Assembly (NCBI GenBank): GCA_020847855.1
Contig: JADLBH010000017.1
Coordinates: forward strand, 1-64,000
From: Fimbriimonadaceae bacterium
GTDB taxonomy: Bacteria; Armatimonadota; Fimbriimonadia; Fimbriimonadales; Fimbriimonadaceae
Length of the DNA: 64,000 nucleotides
Direction of reading: 5' to 3'
Below are positions 1,517-13,070 of this stretch, one piece after another. The position numbers were made by a program, and so were the translations under genes. A model generated the notes under the pieces. The model was not told the origin of the DNA and ran no database searches. It saw only the letters and a program-made list of their open reading frames with translations. Position 1 is the stretch's first letter. Each line of letters opens with the position of its first letter.

Positions 1517-4500
1517 TCAAAACCGGACCGATCCAGGGATGATTCGGCCCAACCTATCGACAAGGACGCGTCTTTCGATGGCCCGGAGATGGTCGGTGGA
1601 AGTCCAACGTACGTGGCCGTCGAGATTGTAGTCGAAAGAGCGAGCATCCGTCAACGGTTGTAGGGCAAGGTCAATCCTGGAGTGGCCGCGCTTGTCGGTT
1701 CCTGGAGTGCTGAACTTGACTACGCGGTAGTACCTTTCACTCCGTCCTTCGACCTCCACGATGTCGTTGGTGCACAGCGCCATGACCGGGGTGAGGCGTT
1801 CGCTGGTCAGGGTGGGGGCGAAGATGGGCTGGCCGCGGACGGCGCGGCGGGCGGCTTCGTGCATGGTGACGACCTCGACCTGGACGCGGCTGCTCAGCTG
1901 GTCGTAGTAGATCACGAAGTGGTGGTTGCTGCCGAACGGCAGAGACTTGGTCGCCCGAGGGTCCGGCTCGACCGGGATCTTCTCGGACGGCTTCATCTCC
2001 ACCTTGAGCATCTTGGAGGGTTCGGTCAGCTTGGTGTTCACCTTGACTCTGCGGACGATCCGCTGCTTGCCGTGGCGGTCTTGGAACCATAGCTCGGGCT
2101 CGACGAACTTCTCGACCTTCTCGTTGGCCTCCTTCTTTTCTTTGTGCTCTGCCAGGAGCGCAGCGACTTCGGCCCGGTGCGCGATGACCCGCTCGCGGAG
2201 CTTGGCGTCGCGGATGCTTTGCACCTCGGGGTCGGAGAGCATGGACACTGGCTTGCGGACGGTGAACTTGCCCGCCTTGGGATCCCAGCCGTAGGCGGTC
2301 TCGTCATGGAGCGCCCCGCTCAGCCCGCGGGTGGCCTGGTGGCTGACGACTATACTTCGAACCGAGCTCGCCACGGCGTCTCGGAAGCCTTCCCAGGGCG
2401 GGGGGGCGTGCCACTTTGCGTCGCCGAGCTTTTGCCGCTTTCCGGTCGTCTCGTCTTCCTCGAGCTTCTTGTTGGCGTCGGAGAGCCGCTTGAGGTAGGC
2501 CCTGCTGGTGGCGGCGATGACGGCGGCGTCCACAGCGTGGTGGCGGTGATCCATCCGGTTCTTCTCTGCCCTTGCCTCGTCCTCTAGGTCGCCGGGCGCG
2601 AGGATGGTGTTGAGCCCCCAACGATGGCGGAGGGCGGCGGTCGCCTTGCCGTTCCCGACCTCGACCTCGACCCCCAGGAGCTTGAGGTAGTCCTTGGCGA
2701 GCACGGCGATATAGCGGGTGTCGTTCAGGTGCCGGCTTGCGAGGTCCTTGTAGAGCTCTTGGACCTCCTCAGGGGTGAGCCGGAAGAGCCGCTTCTTGTG
2801 GCGCCCGCACTTCATGGCGTCTACGCGCTGGAGGATCTGCTCGTACTGCTCGGTGCCGTTGTAGGCTTCATACGGGGTCCGGTTCTTCTTTCGTTCGCGG
2901 TTTTCTTTGGCGATGCAGAGGGTCTTGTTGGCGAAGGAGTCGTCCAGGCAGCGGGAGAACGGGATGATGTGTTCGACGTCCACGTCTCCGCCGTAAAGCC
3001 TTGCGAGGCCAATCCGTTCGCCTGTGTACGGGCAATTGGCTTCGTTCGAGTCTCCTACTAGCGACTCTTTCCATAGCCGGTACTTGATCCGGTCGGTGCG
3101 GGTGGCGACCCCGCCCTTGATCTCTTCGAACACCTTGTCGGCCACTTCGTTGAGCCTCGCGATCCTCTTGTTCTCGTCTTCGAGCTTCTTCTTATCCTTC
3201 TTATTCAATTTGAGGCTGCGGGCGAGCTCAATGCGGACGATCGCGGGCTTGCCGTGCTCGCGGATGATGGCGTTGACGAGCTTTCGGACTTCGTGGAGGC
3301 ACTTGTCCACGACCGGGTTGCGGGCGGTGGGGAGGCGGTCGAGGGGGAGCGAGTCGAGGGTCTCGCTCTCCTTCTCGTAGGCGTGCAGGTAGAGGTCGGC
3401 CTTGTTGGGGCGGGGTTCTTTGTGGGGCCCTTTGCCTTCGCGGATTTCGAGGGCGGCTGCGCGCACGGCGTCGTGGTAGTTCTTGCCGGACTTGAGGTGG
3501 GGCAGGATGTTGCGGATCGCCTGGAGGCTGAGGTTGGCGACGCCGTCATCGAACTCGGTGACGGCAAGTTTGTAGGCTTGTTCGGTCGTCAGGCCCCACT
3601 TCGAGCCCAAGCGGCGGACGAGGGAGTCTTTGCGGTGGATGGTGAAGAGGGCTTCGATCAGGGCCTCGCGCCCCTCGAAGACCTCGTGCGGTTCGAGGGC
3701 CTTGCTCTTCTCTCTGGCGGGATGGTCCCAAAGGCCCGGTGCAGCCTTCTCGATGCGGATCAGCGTGGTGTTCCCGGCGACTCCCTTGTCGTGCCCCGGC
3801 TTTCCTTCATGGCTGAAGACTACGCCTTTCGGTAGATTGAGCTCCTTGCGGAAGCCAGCCCAGGTGACCATGGCGGTGGTGCTGAGGAGCTTGGCTAGCG
3901 CATCGCGCTGCGACTGGTCGAGCAGTCGCCATTCGAATTCTTCCACCGGGCGGTAGGAGAGGTGGGCGAGGAGCTGCCAGATCCGGAACTCCTGGGCGTC
4001 CGGGTGTGCTTTGTCGCACCTTGGGCGGGCCTTCTCGTATTGGCACTTGCCGACCAGCCCGCGCTGGATCTTGAGAGGCCGCTGGTGGAAGATCGCCTGG
4101 TGAACCCTCGCCTTGAGCCCGTCGGTGAGGACGTTCGGGTGGTGGGCGGCTTGGGCGGTCCAGAGCGCGTCGAACTCTTCTTCGTACATCGCACGCTCGG
4201 TATAGCGGCGGCGGACGGGCGTGAAGGCGAGGCACCGGTCCTCGTCGGTGGTTGCAAGGAGCTTCGCGAAATGCTCGCCGAGGGTGCGGCTTCCGGCCGC
4301 GCGCATCTCCCCGCGCAGGGCGGCGATCTCAGCGAGGACGACGCCTTCTTCTTTGTCCTCCTCCGGTTCGTCATCGCCGTTCTTCTTGCGCTTTTCCGCG
4401 GCGCGGGCTGCTTTCTCTTTCGCGTCGGCTGCGATGATGGCGGCGATTTCAGGGTCGTTGGCCAGGTCGCCGAGCCTGGTGCCGCGGTTGCTCTTGAACC

Positions 4501-4882
4501 CTCGGCGTCGGTTCAGGTGGTAGAGGGCGCGGCCGAGCTCGATGAGCGTGAGCTTCTCGTCGAGGCCCCGGGCGCGGAGGGCGTAGGGGTTCTGGGCGTG
4601 GTCGCTGAAAAGGGCGGCGAACTCCTGCGGGTCGGTGGGGAGCATGCCTTGCTCGCGCAGGATGCCGGCGAGGGCGTCGCGGCGCATCTGCCGGCGGCGG
4701 ACGGTGCGCCGTGCCCCCCTCGCGGTGCGGCGCTTGACGTTTTTGGGCGTGCCGCCCTTTGGCTCGATCGCGAGTTCGAAGGCGCGGGCCCCCGAGGCGC
4801 ACACGGCCTCGTTTTCCGGTTCGAGGAGGCACCATCCGACGGATGCGACGCCCAGGTCTAGCCCGAGGACTCGTTGCGTCAT
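1517..4882 (-). CDS. cas9: RNA-guided DNA endonuclease Cas9, type II-C
   Basis: Interference nuclease of the locus, cutting DNA matched by crRNA:tracrRNA. The 1121-aa length is normal for compact II-C proteins. Domains in order: RuvC-I LGLDLG with Asp9; Arg-rich bridge helix at 49-71; helical recognition lobe to about 520; RuvC-II IELARS with Glu552; HNH at about 615-660 with CPYTGE, His638 and Asn652; RuvC-III HHAVDA with His782 and Asp785; then the C-terminal PAM-interacting region. The residue before the HNH histidine is Glu637 where the best-studied Cas9s have Asp, which I expect to be tolerated. No frameshift or stop is seen. There is no Shine-Dalgarno; a TACAGT hexamer ends 6 nt before the ATG, suggesting a leaderless mRNA. 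Confidence 0.97.
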   Translation of the reverse strand: MTQRVLGLDLGVASVGWCLLEPENEAVCASGARAFELAIEPKGGTPKNVKRRTARGARRTVRRRQMRRDALAGILREQGMLPTDPQEFAALFSDHAQNPYALRARGLDEKLTLIELGRALYHLNRRRGFKSNRGTRLGDLANDPEIAAIIAADAKEKAARAAEKRKKNGDDEPEEDKEEGVVLAEIAALRGEMRAAGSRTLGEHFAKLLATTDEDRCLAFTPVRRRYTERAMYEEEFDALWTAQAAHHPNVLTDGLKARVHQAIFHQRPLKIQRGLVGKCQYEKARPRCDKAHPDAQEFRIWQLLAHLSYRPVEEFEWRLLDQSQRDALAKLLSTTAMVTWAGFRKELNLPKGVVFSHEGKPGHDKGVAGNTTLIRIEKAAPGLWDHPAREKSKALEPHEVFEGREALIEALFTIHRKDSLVRRLGSKWGLTTEQAYKLAVTEFDDGVANLSLQAIRNILPHLKSGKNYHDAVRAAALEIREGKGPHKEPRPNKADLYLHAYEKESETLDSLPLDRLPTARNPVVDKCLHEVRKLVNAIIREHGKPAIVRIELARSLKLNKKDKKKLEDENKRIARLNEVADKVFEEIKGGVATRTDRIKYRLWKESLVGDSNEANCPYTGERIGLARLYGGDVDVEHIIPFSRCLDDSFANKTLCIAKENRERKKNRTPYEAYNGTEQYEQILQRVDAMKCGRHKKRLFRLTPEEVQELYKDLASRHLNDTRYIAVLAKDYLKLLGVEVEVGNGKATAALRHRWGLNTILAPGDLEDEARAEKNRMDHRHHAVDAAVIAATSRAYLKRLSDANKKLEEDETTGKRQKLGDAKWHAPPPWEGFRDAVASSVRSIVVSHQATRGLSGALHDETAYGWDPKAGKFTVRKPVSMLSDPEVQSIRDAKLRERVIAHRAEVAALLAEHKEKKEANEKVEKFVEPELWFQDRHGKQRIVRRVKVNTKLTEPSKMLKVEMKPSEKIPVEPDPRATKSLPFGSNHHFVIYYDQLSSRVQVEVVTMHEAARRAVRGQPIFAPTLTSERLTPVMALCTNDIVEVEGRSERYYRVVKFSTPGTDKRGHSRIDLALQPLTDARSFDYNLDGHVRWTSTDHLRAIERRVLVDRLGRIIPGSVRF

Positions 4883-4888
4883 GCGTCT

Positions 4889-4920
4889 ACTGTACCGGTA
4901 GCGGGCGGTTGTGGTATAGT
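4889..4920. promoter_or_regulatory. Divergent promoters for cas9 and tracrRNA
   Basis: On the plus strand TATAGT (4915-4920) ends 6 bases before the anti-repeat, so initiation near 4927 would start tracrRNA almost exactly at its anti-repeat. On the minus strand TACAGT (4894 to 4889) ends 6 bases before the cas9 ATG. The -35 elements are poor on both sides. The two -10 elements lie in a 32-bp region, so the promoters probably overlap and may compete. Confidence 0.55.
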
Positions 4921-4926
4921 AGCGAA

Positions 4927-5060
4927 GTATCTGATCGGAGCCTGCGCCCGCATCTTCACAAAGGACAAGCAGTCCGCAGGATATCTCGAAAGAGGACCTT
5001 AGGCCCCGCTACCGGCGGTCGCTGCGACCACCTCCCTCACCGGGGGGTGTCGTTGTTTTT
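4927..5060 (+). ncRNA. tracrRNA of the type II-C system
   Basis: Bases 4927-4945 pair perfectly with repeat bases 51-69. After a small internal bulge, pairing resumes with 4953-4958 against repeat bases 39-44, giving the upper stem, bulge and lower stem expected of a crRNA:tracrRNA duplex. Downstream come a nexus-like hairpin GGAC-AAGCA-GTCC (4963-4975), a GAAA-tetraloop hairpin (about 4978-4999), a hairpin GGTCG-CTG-CGACC (5017-5029) and a terminator stem 5029-5036/5042-5049 with a T-rich tail to 5060. The RNA would be about 134 nt, transcribed divergently from cas9. Confidence 0.88.
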
Positions 5061-5111
5061 GAGGGGCCTATGCTCTGGGAGTGTCGGCCACCGAACTCCG
5101 AGGATCGCGCA

Positions 5112-10559: not shown

Positions 10560-13070
10560 TTAGGCGGAGACGATCTCGGTGACGAGGGACAGGAACGTTT
10601 CCGCTCTCGCGCAGTGTACAGGCTGGACGCCAAGGCGGTTCGCTGCTTCACGCGCGAACGCAACGACACGGGGCGAGTGCCGTCGCGGAAGGGCGAGCAT
10701 GGCAGCTACGGCTCGCCTGGCGAGATCGCGATCGCCGGATTCCTCGGCCGTGGTCGCCACTTCGATCAGCCCGACCCCGGCGCGGTGGAGCTGGCGTCCC
10801 TCGAGCGCGTGCCTCACCATCCGATTGGCCGCTCGAAGGCTCGCGCCGTAGTCCCCAGCTTCACGGGCGATCTTGGCGACCGTGCTGAGAACGTAAGGCG
10901 TGTGAGCTGGATCGGACTGCCGGCTCTGCGCCGCGATTGCCATGGCGAGTCCGTCGGACGGGTGACCTTCGATCACCAAGCACCGGGCCTCGAAGAGTTC
11001 CAGCCACACGCCCGCCTCTGGGTCCGTACTCTGGGGCACGACGTGCCGAAGGCGCTCGACGAGCTGCCTCGCGGCGTCCGGATCACCCTGCTCGATACTC
11101 AGGTCAATGAGGTCGCCGAGTGCGTCCGCCTCCGCGCTCGCATCGCCGATCTGGTGGGCCGCGTTGGCCCGTTCCTCCCAGTGGCCCGCCGCGACCTCCG
11201 GGAATCCGGAGCGCCTTGCCGCAATTCCTTGAAGCCCGAGGAGCTCGATGTAGAGCCCGTGGTCTCCTTCGGCAACCGCGGCCGCGGTGCTTTCGACCGC
11301 AAGGAACCCGAACTCGTGCAAGAGCCCGCTCTCGACGTAGATTCGGGCGAGGCCCCGTGCGTAGTCCAGGACGAGGCCCCGGTTCCCAGACTCCACGGCG
11401 TGCGCGAAGCCGGCCTTGAAGTTCCCTCCATCGGCTTGGATGGCCTCAGCGACGGTGACGGAGGCTGCGGCGAGCATCGCCTTACCCGTGGCGAGTGCTA
11501 GCTGGGCGAAGTGTCGGGCATGGGCGTCGCGCCAAGGGGCGAGCTCGTTGGCGGGAGTGGACTCGAGCAGGAACTCGCGCACCGAGTCGAGCTGACGATA
11601 ACGAAGGGCCTGGTGCCGAATCTCGGTCGCGAGTAGCGAACTGTCCCTCAGCCGACTCAGCAGGTCTAGGGTCTCATCGGTGTCGCCGAGCACGCCCAGG
11701 GCATCCTCGAGCCGGAAGCCTCCTTGGAAGACGGTGAACCTTGCCGCAGCGGCTCGGTCTTCGGGGTCCAAGAGCGAGACCGTGCTCTCCACCACTTGGT
11801 GGAGGCTGGAGTGCCTCCCTTGCCCGGACGGGGACCGAAGAGCCCCGAGCTGACTGTTCCGGACGCGCGCTTCCACGTCCTCAAGGCTCACGTGCCGAAG
11901 CCGACTCGCCGCAAGAATGATCGCAAGGGGAATCCCTTCGAGGGCACGAACGATGCCCGTGACCGTTCGAAGCTGGGACTTCGTCGGAGCGAAGTCGGGG
12001 ACGGCCAAATTGGCGGCTTCGAGGAAGAGCCTCTCTGCGGGGGAAGGCACCCCCCGGCTCGAGGTCTGATCCAGGCCCTTGAGTTCGAACGTCTGCTCGC
12101 CGGGCAGGCCGATCAATCTCCGGCTCGTGATGAGCACCCGCAGCCGGGCGCAAGAGCGCACGATTCGCGAAAGGAAGCCGAGTTCGGCGGCGATGCCCTC
12201 GCAACAGTCGAGGATCAAGAGCGTTTCGGTCTCGGCGGCTGCAGCCGCGATCGCCTCAGGCGTGAGATTGTCCACCGGTTGGTCGAGTCCGATCGCGATC
12301 GCGGCCAAAGCTTGCTCCCCCGTCCGGCACGACTCACAATCCAACCATCGCACCCCGCCAGGAAACCGATGGAGGCAGTCCCAAGCGACCGCGTTCGCCA
12401 GGGACGATTTGCCCACTCCCCCAAAACCGAGCACGGTGACGATGGGACTGATGCCCTCGAGCACAAAGGCCCGAAGGGCTGCTCGCTCGTGGTCGCGGCC
12501 GACGAAGCGGTGGTCAACAGGAACGAGGTCGGATTGTGTTCCTAGGGAGGCAAACGGTGCAACCTCGGACCCTTCACCATTGCGGAAAGCTTGCCAGAGG
12601 ACTTCGCGTCTCGTATGCCCGCGCAGTACGACCTGACCCAGTTTCTTCCACTCGATGTTGGGGCTCAGAAGGTCAACGGCGAGGTCGTGGCAGGTGGACG
12701 AAACAAGGACTTGGCCTGGGCGAGCAAGCTCGACGATCCGAGCGACTCGGTTCACGGCCGCGCCCTGGAAGTCTCCCTCCATCGGCTCGGCGTAGCCCGA
12801 GTGGACCCCGATCCGAACCTCGGCGTCCTGGAGCGTGCGGACGCACTCCACGGCCGCGAAGACGGCATCATGAGGCAAGTCGAAGACCGCTGCAAGCCCG
12901 TCTCCGAGGCTCTTGAAGACCGTGCCACCGGACGCTTCGACCGCCCTTCGCACCTCGGCGTTGTGCCTCGATATGCGCTCTCCCATCGCGAGCCGGTCAT
13001 GCTCCCATCCCGCCGAACTCTGTGCGAGGTCGGTGAAAAGGAACGTATACGTCCGGCCCTCGGAGGCCAT
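10560..13070 (-). CDS. Class III nucleotide cyclase fused to STAND ATPase and helical repeats
   Basis: An 836-aa regulatory protein. Residues 6-130 are a class III adenylate/guanylate cyclase catalytic domain: FTDLAQSS with Asp14, FKSLGDG with Lys53 and Asp57, and GAAVNRVARI with Asn107 and Arg111, so the active site looks complete. Residues about 186-480 form an AfsR/MalT-like STAND ATPase with P-loop GFGGVGKSS (Lys221) and Walker B LLILDCCEG. The C-terminal half is helical TPR-like repeats. This architecture links ligand- or partner-driven ATPase switching to cyclic nucleotide output; the ligand is unknown. TACAAT ends 8 nt before the ATG. Confidence 0.9.
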   Translation of the reverse strand: MASEGRTYTFLFTDLAQSSAGWEHDRLAMGERISRHNAEVRRAVEASGGTVFKSLGDGLAAVFDLPHDAVFAAVECVRTLQDAEVRIGVHSGYAEPMEGDFQGAAVNRVARIVELARPGQVLVSSTCHDLAVDLLSPNIEWKKLGQVVLRGHTRREVLWQAFRNGEGSEVAPFASLGTQSDLVPVDHRFVGRDHERAALRAFVLEGISPIVTVLGFGGVGKSSLANAVAWDCLHRFPGGVRWLDCESCRTGEQALAAIAIGLDQPVDNLTPEAIAAAAAETETLLILDCCEGIAAELGFLSRIVRSCARLRVLITSRRLIGLPGEQTFELKGLDQTSSRGVPSPAERLFLEAANLAVPDFAPTKSQLRTVTGIVRALEGIPLAIILAASRLRHVSLEDVEARVRNSQLGALRSPSGQGRHSSLHQVVESTVSLLDPEDRAAAARFTVFQGGFRLEDALGVLGDTDETLDLLSRLRDSSLLATEIRHQALRYRQLDSVREFLLESTPANELAPWRDAHARHFAQLALATGKAMLAAASVTVAEAIQADGGNFKAGFAHAVESGNRGLVLDYARGLARIYVESGLLHEFGFLAVESTAAAVAEGDHGLYIELLGLQGIAARRSGFPEVAAGHWEERANAAHQIGDASAEADALGDLIDLSIEQGDPDAARQLVERLRHVVPQSTDPEAGVWLELFEARCLVIEGHPSDGLAMAIAAQSRQSDPAHTPYVLSTVAKIAREAGDYGASLRAANRMVRHALEGRQLHRAGVGLIEVATTAEESGDRDLARRAVAAMLALPRRHSPRVVAFAREAANRLGVQPVHCARAETFLSLVTEIVSA

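Follow-up and report, generated by a model that had tools for sequence, protein, structure and literature searches.

A predicted tracrRNA transcribed divergently from cas9 in a type II-C CRISPR-Cas9 system of a Fimbriimonadaceae bacterium

We analyzed the first 64,000 nucleotides of a contig from a Fimbriimonadaceae bacterium (hereafter, the window) and found that the forward-strand segment from 4927 to about 5060 encodes, with a probability of roughly 96%, the tracrRNA for a CRISPR-Cas9 system of type II-C, having a predicted extended -10 promoter of its own, lying divergent from cas9 and ending in an intrinsic terminator. The tracrRNA is genuine, complete and in the right orientation, but both it and the type II-C system to which it belongs are standard ones, met here in a new genome. 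The sequence-only reading of this DNA had placed a tracrRNA upstream of cas9, and this placement was directly backed by the sequence and its pairing, by uniqueness in the genome, by partner-specific co-variation with the repeat in relatives, and by a promoter-like box and terminator signals. Transcription, processing and cleavage activity are what we infer for the system. That reading had also called the RNA a full single partner for the nuclease; the partner stands, but "single" is loose, as the guide RNA is dual and the tracrRNA makes up only half of it. The interest of this otherwise ordinary locus lies mostly in a possible extra helix within the tracrRNA.

The cas genes are all encoded on the reverse strand. 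The cas9 gene (1517-4882) encodes a protein of 1121 aa with both RuvC and HNH domains, which matched TIGR01865 at 612 bits and was the only cas9 in the genome above the family cut-off. The cas1 gene (452-1438) matched the type II NMENI model TIGR03639 at 249 bits, and cas2 lies at 126-455. No csn2 was found in the locus or genome-wide, in a search run without a positive control, and no cas4 scored above the cut-off. The system is thus filed as type II-C, having cas9, cas1 and cas2 and neither csn2 nor cas4 in the locus. Elsewhere in the window, the reverse-strand region 10560-13070 encodes a protein that weakly matches nucleotide cyclase, AAA and nSTAND1 models and may be a signalling protein or STAND NTPase.

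The anti-repeat occupies 4927-4958 on the forward strand. Bases 4927-4945 had been described as the perfect complement of repeat bases 51-69, and they proved to be the exact 19-nt reverse complement of these bases. In the folded duplex with the repeat, 4927-4943 pairs with 53-69, 4946-4951 with 47-52 and 4952-4958 with 39-45, giving 30 bp in which two tracrRNA nucleotides and A46 of the repeat are bulged out. Pairing does resume after a bulge, as had been claimed, but not first at 4953-4958, since both 4946-4951 and 4952-4958 pair; the placement of the 2-nt bulge alters the second segment, which is either 4946-4951 or 4948-4951. When the repeat plus 4927-5060 was folded, as the sequence-only reading had proposed, here with the two joined through GAAA, the free energy was -93.5 kcal/mol (z -7.1), compared with -60.4 kcal/mol (sd 4.6) for shuffled sequences, 0 of 200 of which folded as well. 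Folded alone, the tracrRNA was unexceptional (z -1.05 vs shuffles), as expected if the signal resides in the partner. With up to three mismatches, the anti-repeat pattern had no third match in the window (0.01 expected by shuffling), and every other match in the 2.53 Mb genome was an array repeat, while the reversed pattern used as a control gave 0 matches across the genome. A better anti-repeat elsewhere in the genome had been named as evidence that would count against this tracrRNA; because the exact complement is unique outside the array at up to three mismatches, there is none at that sensitivity.

Downstream of the anti-repeat, folding and a terminator search recovered each of the elements that had been read from the letters. 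A nexus-like hairpin, GGAC-aagca-GTCC, lies at 4963-4975 (stem 4963-4966/4972-4975), followed by a GAAA-loop hairpin at 4984-4995, a third hairpin, GGCCCCG...CGGcGGUC, at 5002-5020, and an intrinsic terminator at 5029-5060 with its stem at 5029-5049 and a T-rich tail, all on the forward strand. Perfect 8-bp inverted repeats, TAGGCCCC (5000-5007) and GGGGCCTA (5063-5070), flank the third hairpin, the terminator and the T run. The locus therefore shows the features of a type II tracrRNA, with a repeat-complementary anti-repeat outside the array and near cas9, and a nexus, other hairpins and a terminator 3' of it. An Rfam search with the region returned no covariance-model match even at E 10, and a search of plasmids gave no match.

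An extended -10 box, TGgTATAGT, was read in the sequence at 4912-4920 on the forward strand; its end lies 6 bases before 4927, and the start of the tracrRNA is predicted from it at about 4927. Among 28 tracrRNA loci from the genome studied and related genomes, 18 carried a TATAAT-like hexamer (at least 5 of 6 bases) 3-12 bases before the anti-repeat, compared with 2.7 expected and at most 10 in any of 1000 shuffles. No -35 box for the tracrRNA was found in the window; several relatives have TTGACA too, at 16-19 bases. On the opposite strand, no ribosome binding site is visible at the cas9 start (4880-4894), and a TACAGT hexamer (4894-4889) ends 6 bases before the cas9 ATG. These two observations suggest a possibly leaderless cas9 mRNA whose promoter would overlap the tracrRNA promoter region.

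Relatives of this Cas9, no more than 45% identical to it, were present in 28 genomes out of 201 and, in a second set overlapping the first, in 33 out of 291, and a separate search for Cas9 loci in the genome contig collection yielded two distant relatives only. In most relatives with a readable array, an anti-repeat was found, mostly upstream of cas9 and divergent from it; in three more distant relatives (L051, L052 and L079), it runs in the other direction. The repeats vary among the relatives, and the anti-repeats change along with them, showing the between-species co-variation expected of type II tracrRNAs. Across 22 genomes, the helix score of repeat with anti-repeat was 41.3 for matched pairs and 18.1 (sd 1.7) for permuted partners, a z of 14 in which the kinship among the genomes is retained. 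This co-variation is the strongest evidence that the tracrRNA is the partner with which the repeat works. It is very improbable that the anti-repeat is instead a dead solo repeat or the relic of a decayed tracrRNA, for it is error-free and accompanied by a promoter-like box, hairpins and a terminator; moreover, cas9, cas1 and cas2 are all open, and 18 of the 19 repeats on the contig carrying the rest of the array (C19) are identical.

Window base 1 is the first base of its contig (C17). Positions 1-7 are the tail of a preceding repeat, 8-36 are a spacer, and the last complete repeat, GCTGGGGATAGCGGGCAGGCTCCGATCAGATACACT, spans 37-72 (36 nt, forward strand), with a terminator at 84-113 on the same strand just after it. 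The remaining array was found on the reverse strand at the start of C19 (G000:C19:20-1245), where the exception among the repeats has 8 mismatches; one spacer of this part is 37 nt long, compared with the usual 28-30. The array thus appears to be split over two contigs, the repeat tail at 1-7 suggesting that it continues past window base 1. The degenerate repeat lies at the array's 5' end, remote from cas2. Degenerate repeats usually mark the old end of an array, and if they do so here, new repeats would join at the cas2 end. Spacers had no match among phages, and their matches among 150 relatives were arrays or scattered short ones, from which no PAM was derived.

Three signs together support the array direction given in the sequence-only reading, in which the crRNAs are read on the forward strand, in the direction of cas2 and opposite to the cas genes: the polarity of the tracrRNA, which has its hairpins and terminator downstream of the anti-repeat on the forward strand only; the terminator that follows the last repeat; and the degenerate repeat at the array's 5' end. 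The complement is symmetric in itself, and array and cas genes share one reading direction in some type II systems, so one might suppose that the reverse strand is the one read for both tracrRNA and array, away from cas2. We consider this highly unlikely, because the tail of such an RNA would enter the cas9 coding sequence, the pairing reaches the 5' end of the repeat in the forward direction only, terminator-like sites were found here on the forward strand only, and the -10 box stands before the anti-repeat on that strand. The repeats here end in GATACACT, in which TACACT matches 4 of 6 bases, and those of relatives often end in TACAAT or TATAAT; these -10-like ends make transcription from within the repeats plausible.

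A conserved GCAGG just after the nexus (4976-4980, forward strand) is complementary to the middle of the anti-repeat, CCUGC (4941-4945). When the 5' parts of 17 homologous tracrRNAs were aligned with plain MAFFT, in which structure is not consulted, RNAalifold predicted a single helix, namely 4941-4945 with 4976-4980. Two-sided changes were seen at 4 of its 5 pairs, and 90.5% of cells were paired compared with no more than 45% when the strands were slid by 1-3 columns; the observed measures were reached by 3 to 19 of 500 shuffles. Because per-sequence p-values against shuffled tails were weak (0.01-0.99), partner permutation was used, which gave a p of about 0.01, compared with 0.19-0.36 for three control comparisons. 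In the free tracrRNA of the window, the helix had a predicted probability of 0.48. This helix and full pairing of the same bases with the repeat are mutually exclusive. Some mid anti-repeat bases of L033, L034 and L042 mismatch the repeat yet match the post-nexus bases.

These observations would be compatible with an addition to the standard scheme, in which this pairing closes the free tracrRNA until a crRNA opens it, or gives rise to a pseudoknot once the complex is bound. We hold this to be possible but doubtful. Independent changes are few, related sequences inflate the counts, both motifs may be conserved for protein contacts, and the helix is absent or unclear in five relatives (L047, L049, L031, L055 and L056). 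In two of these (L055:11794, forward strand; L056:2207, reverse strand), a different nexus region, GCAGTTGA, is complementary to the lower anti-repeat, TCGACTGC; the extra helix there, if any, differs. The helix may accordingly be regarded as a lead with modest support. The literature searched gave no account of it, and an earlier description is possible.

The layout can be compared with known type II-C systems. In Clostridium cellulolyticum H10 (CcCas9), a 70-107 nt tracrRNA lies upstream of the cas genes, RNA-seq shows that the array is transcribed opposite to them, the repeat's final nine bases look like an extended -10 box, and several sgRNAs were inactive (PMC7038990). The same arrangement of tracrRNA and array is read here from sequence, and the repeat 3' ends may likewise be -10-like; the organism is different, and the likeness is one of layout. 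The system resembles that of Neisseria meningitidis (Nme1Cas9) in its Cas1 model, TIGR03639, and in the succession of repeat:anti-repeat, AAUAAGG linker, nexus and stem loops, whereas the repeat here begins with GCTGGGG, not GTTGTAG. The Nme1 sgRNA printed in PMC6594998 contains CGUUGC/GCAACG, which could pair in the same additional way. Among Cas9 chains in the PDB, the best matches to the window Cas9 reached only about 200 bits. As in Acidothermus cellulolyticus AceCas9 (PMC7733487), a duplex and short linker precede stem loop 1, a conserved connecting loop and stem loop 2; however, two tracrRNA stem loops are described there (PMC7733487), compared with three hairpins and a terminator here, and the Cas9 similarity is weak (chains 6wbr and 6wc0).

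In the proposed mechanism, the tracrRNA would be transcribed from its extended -10 promoter, divergently from cas9, to the intrinsic terminator, and its 5' part would pair with the repeat portion of crRNAs made from the forward strand towards cas2. The RNAs would then be processed, and the genome has a gene for RNase III; Cas9 would bind the duplex, nexus and hairpins, and the spacer would direct cutting of matching DNA. With the tracrRNA, a further type II-C Cas9 system is fully described, so a dual guide RNA or an sgRNA could be tried. The extra helix, if present, would matter for guide design, as trimming the upper duplex would change which partner the mid anti-repeat meets. That this lineage, and possibly type II-C at large, keeps the mid anti-repeat complementary to the post-nexus bases seems to us unlikely; if true, guide assembly would include a general and little-remarked step, either a pseudoknot that is conserved or a free tracrRNA that stays closed until the crRNA opens it.
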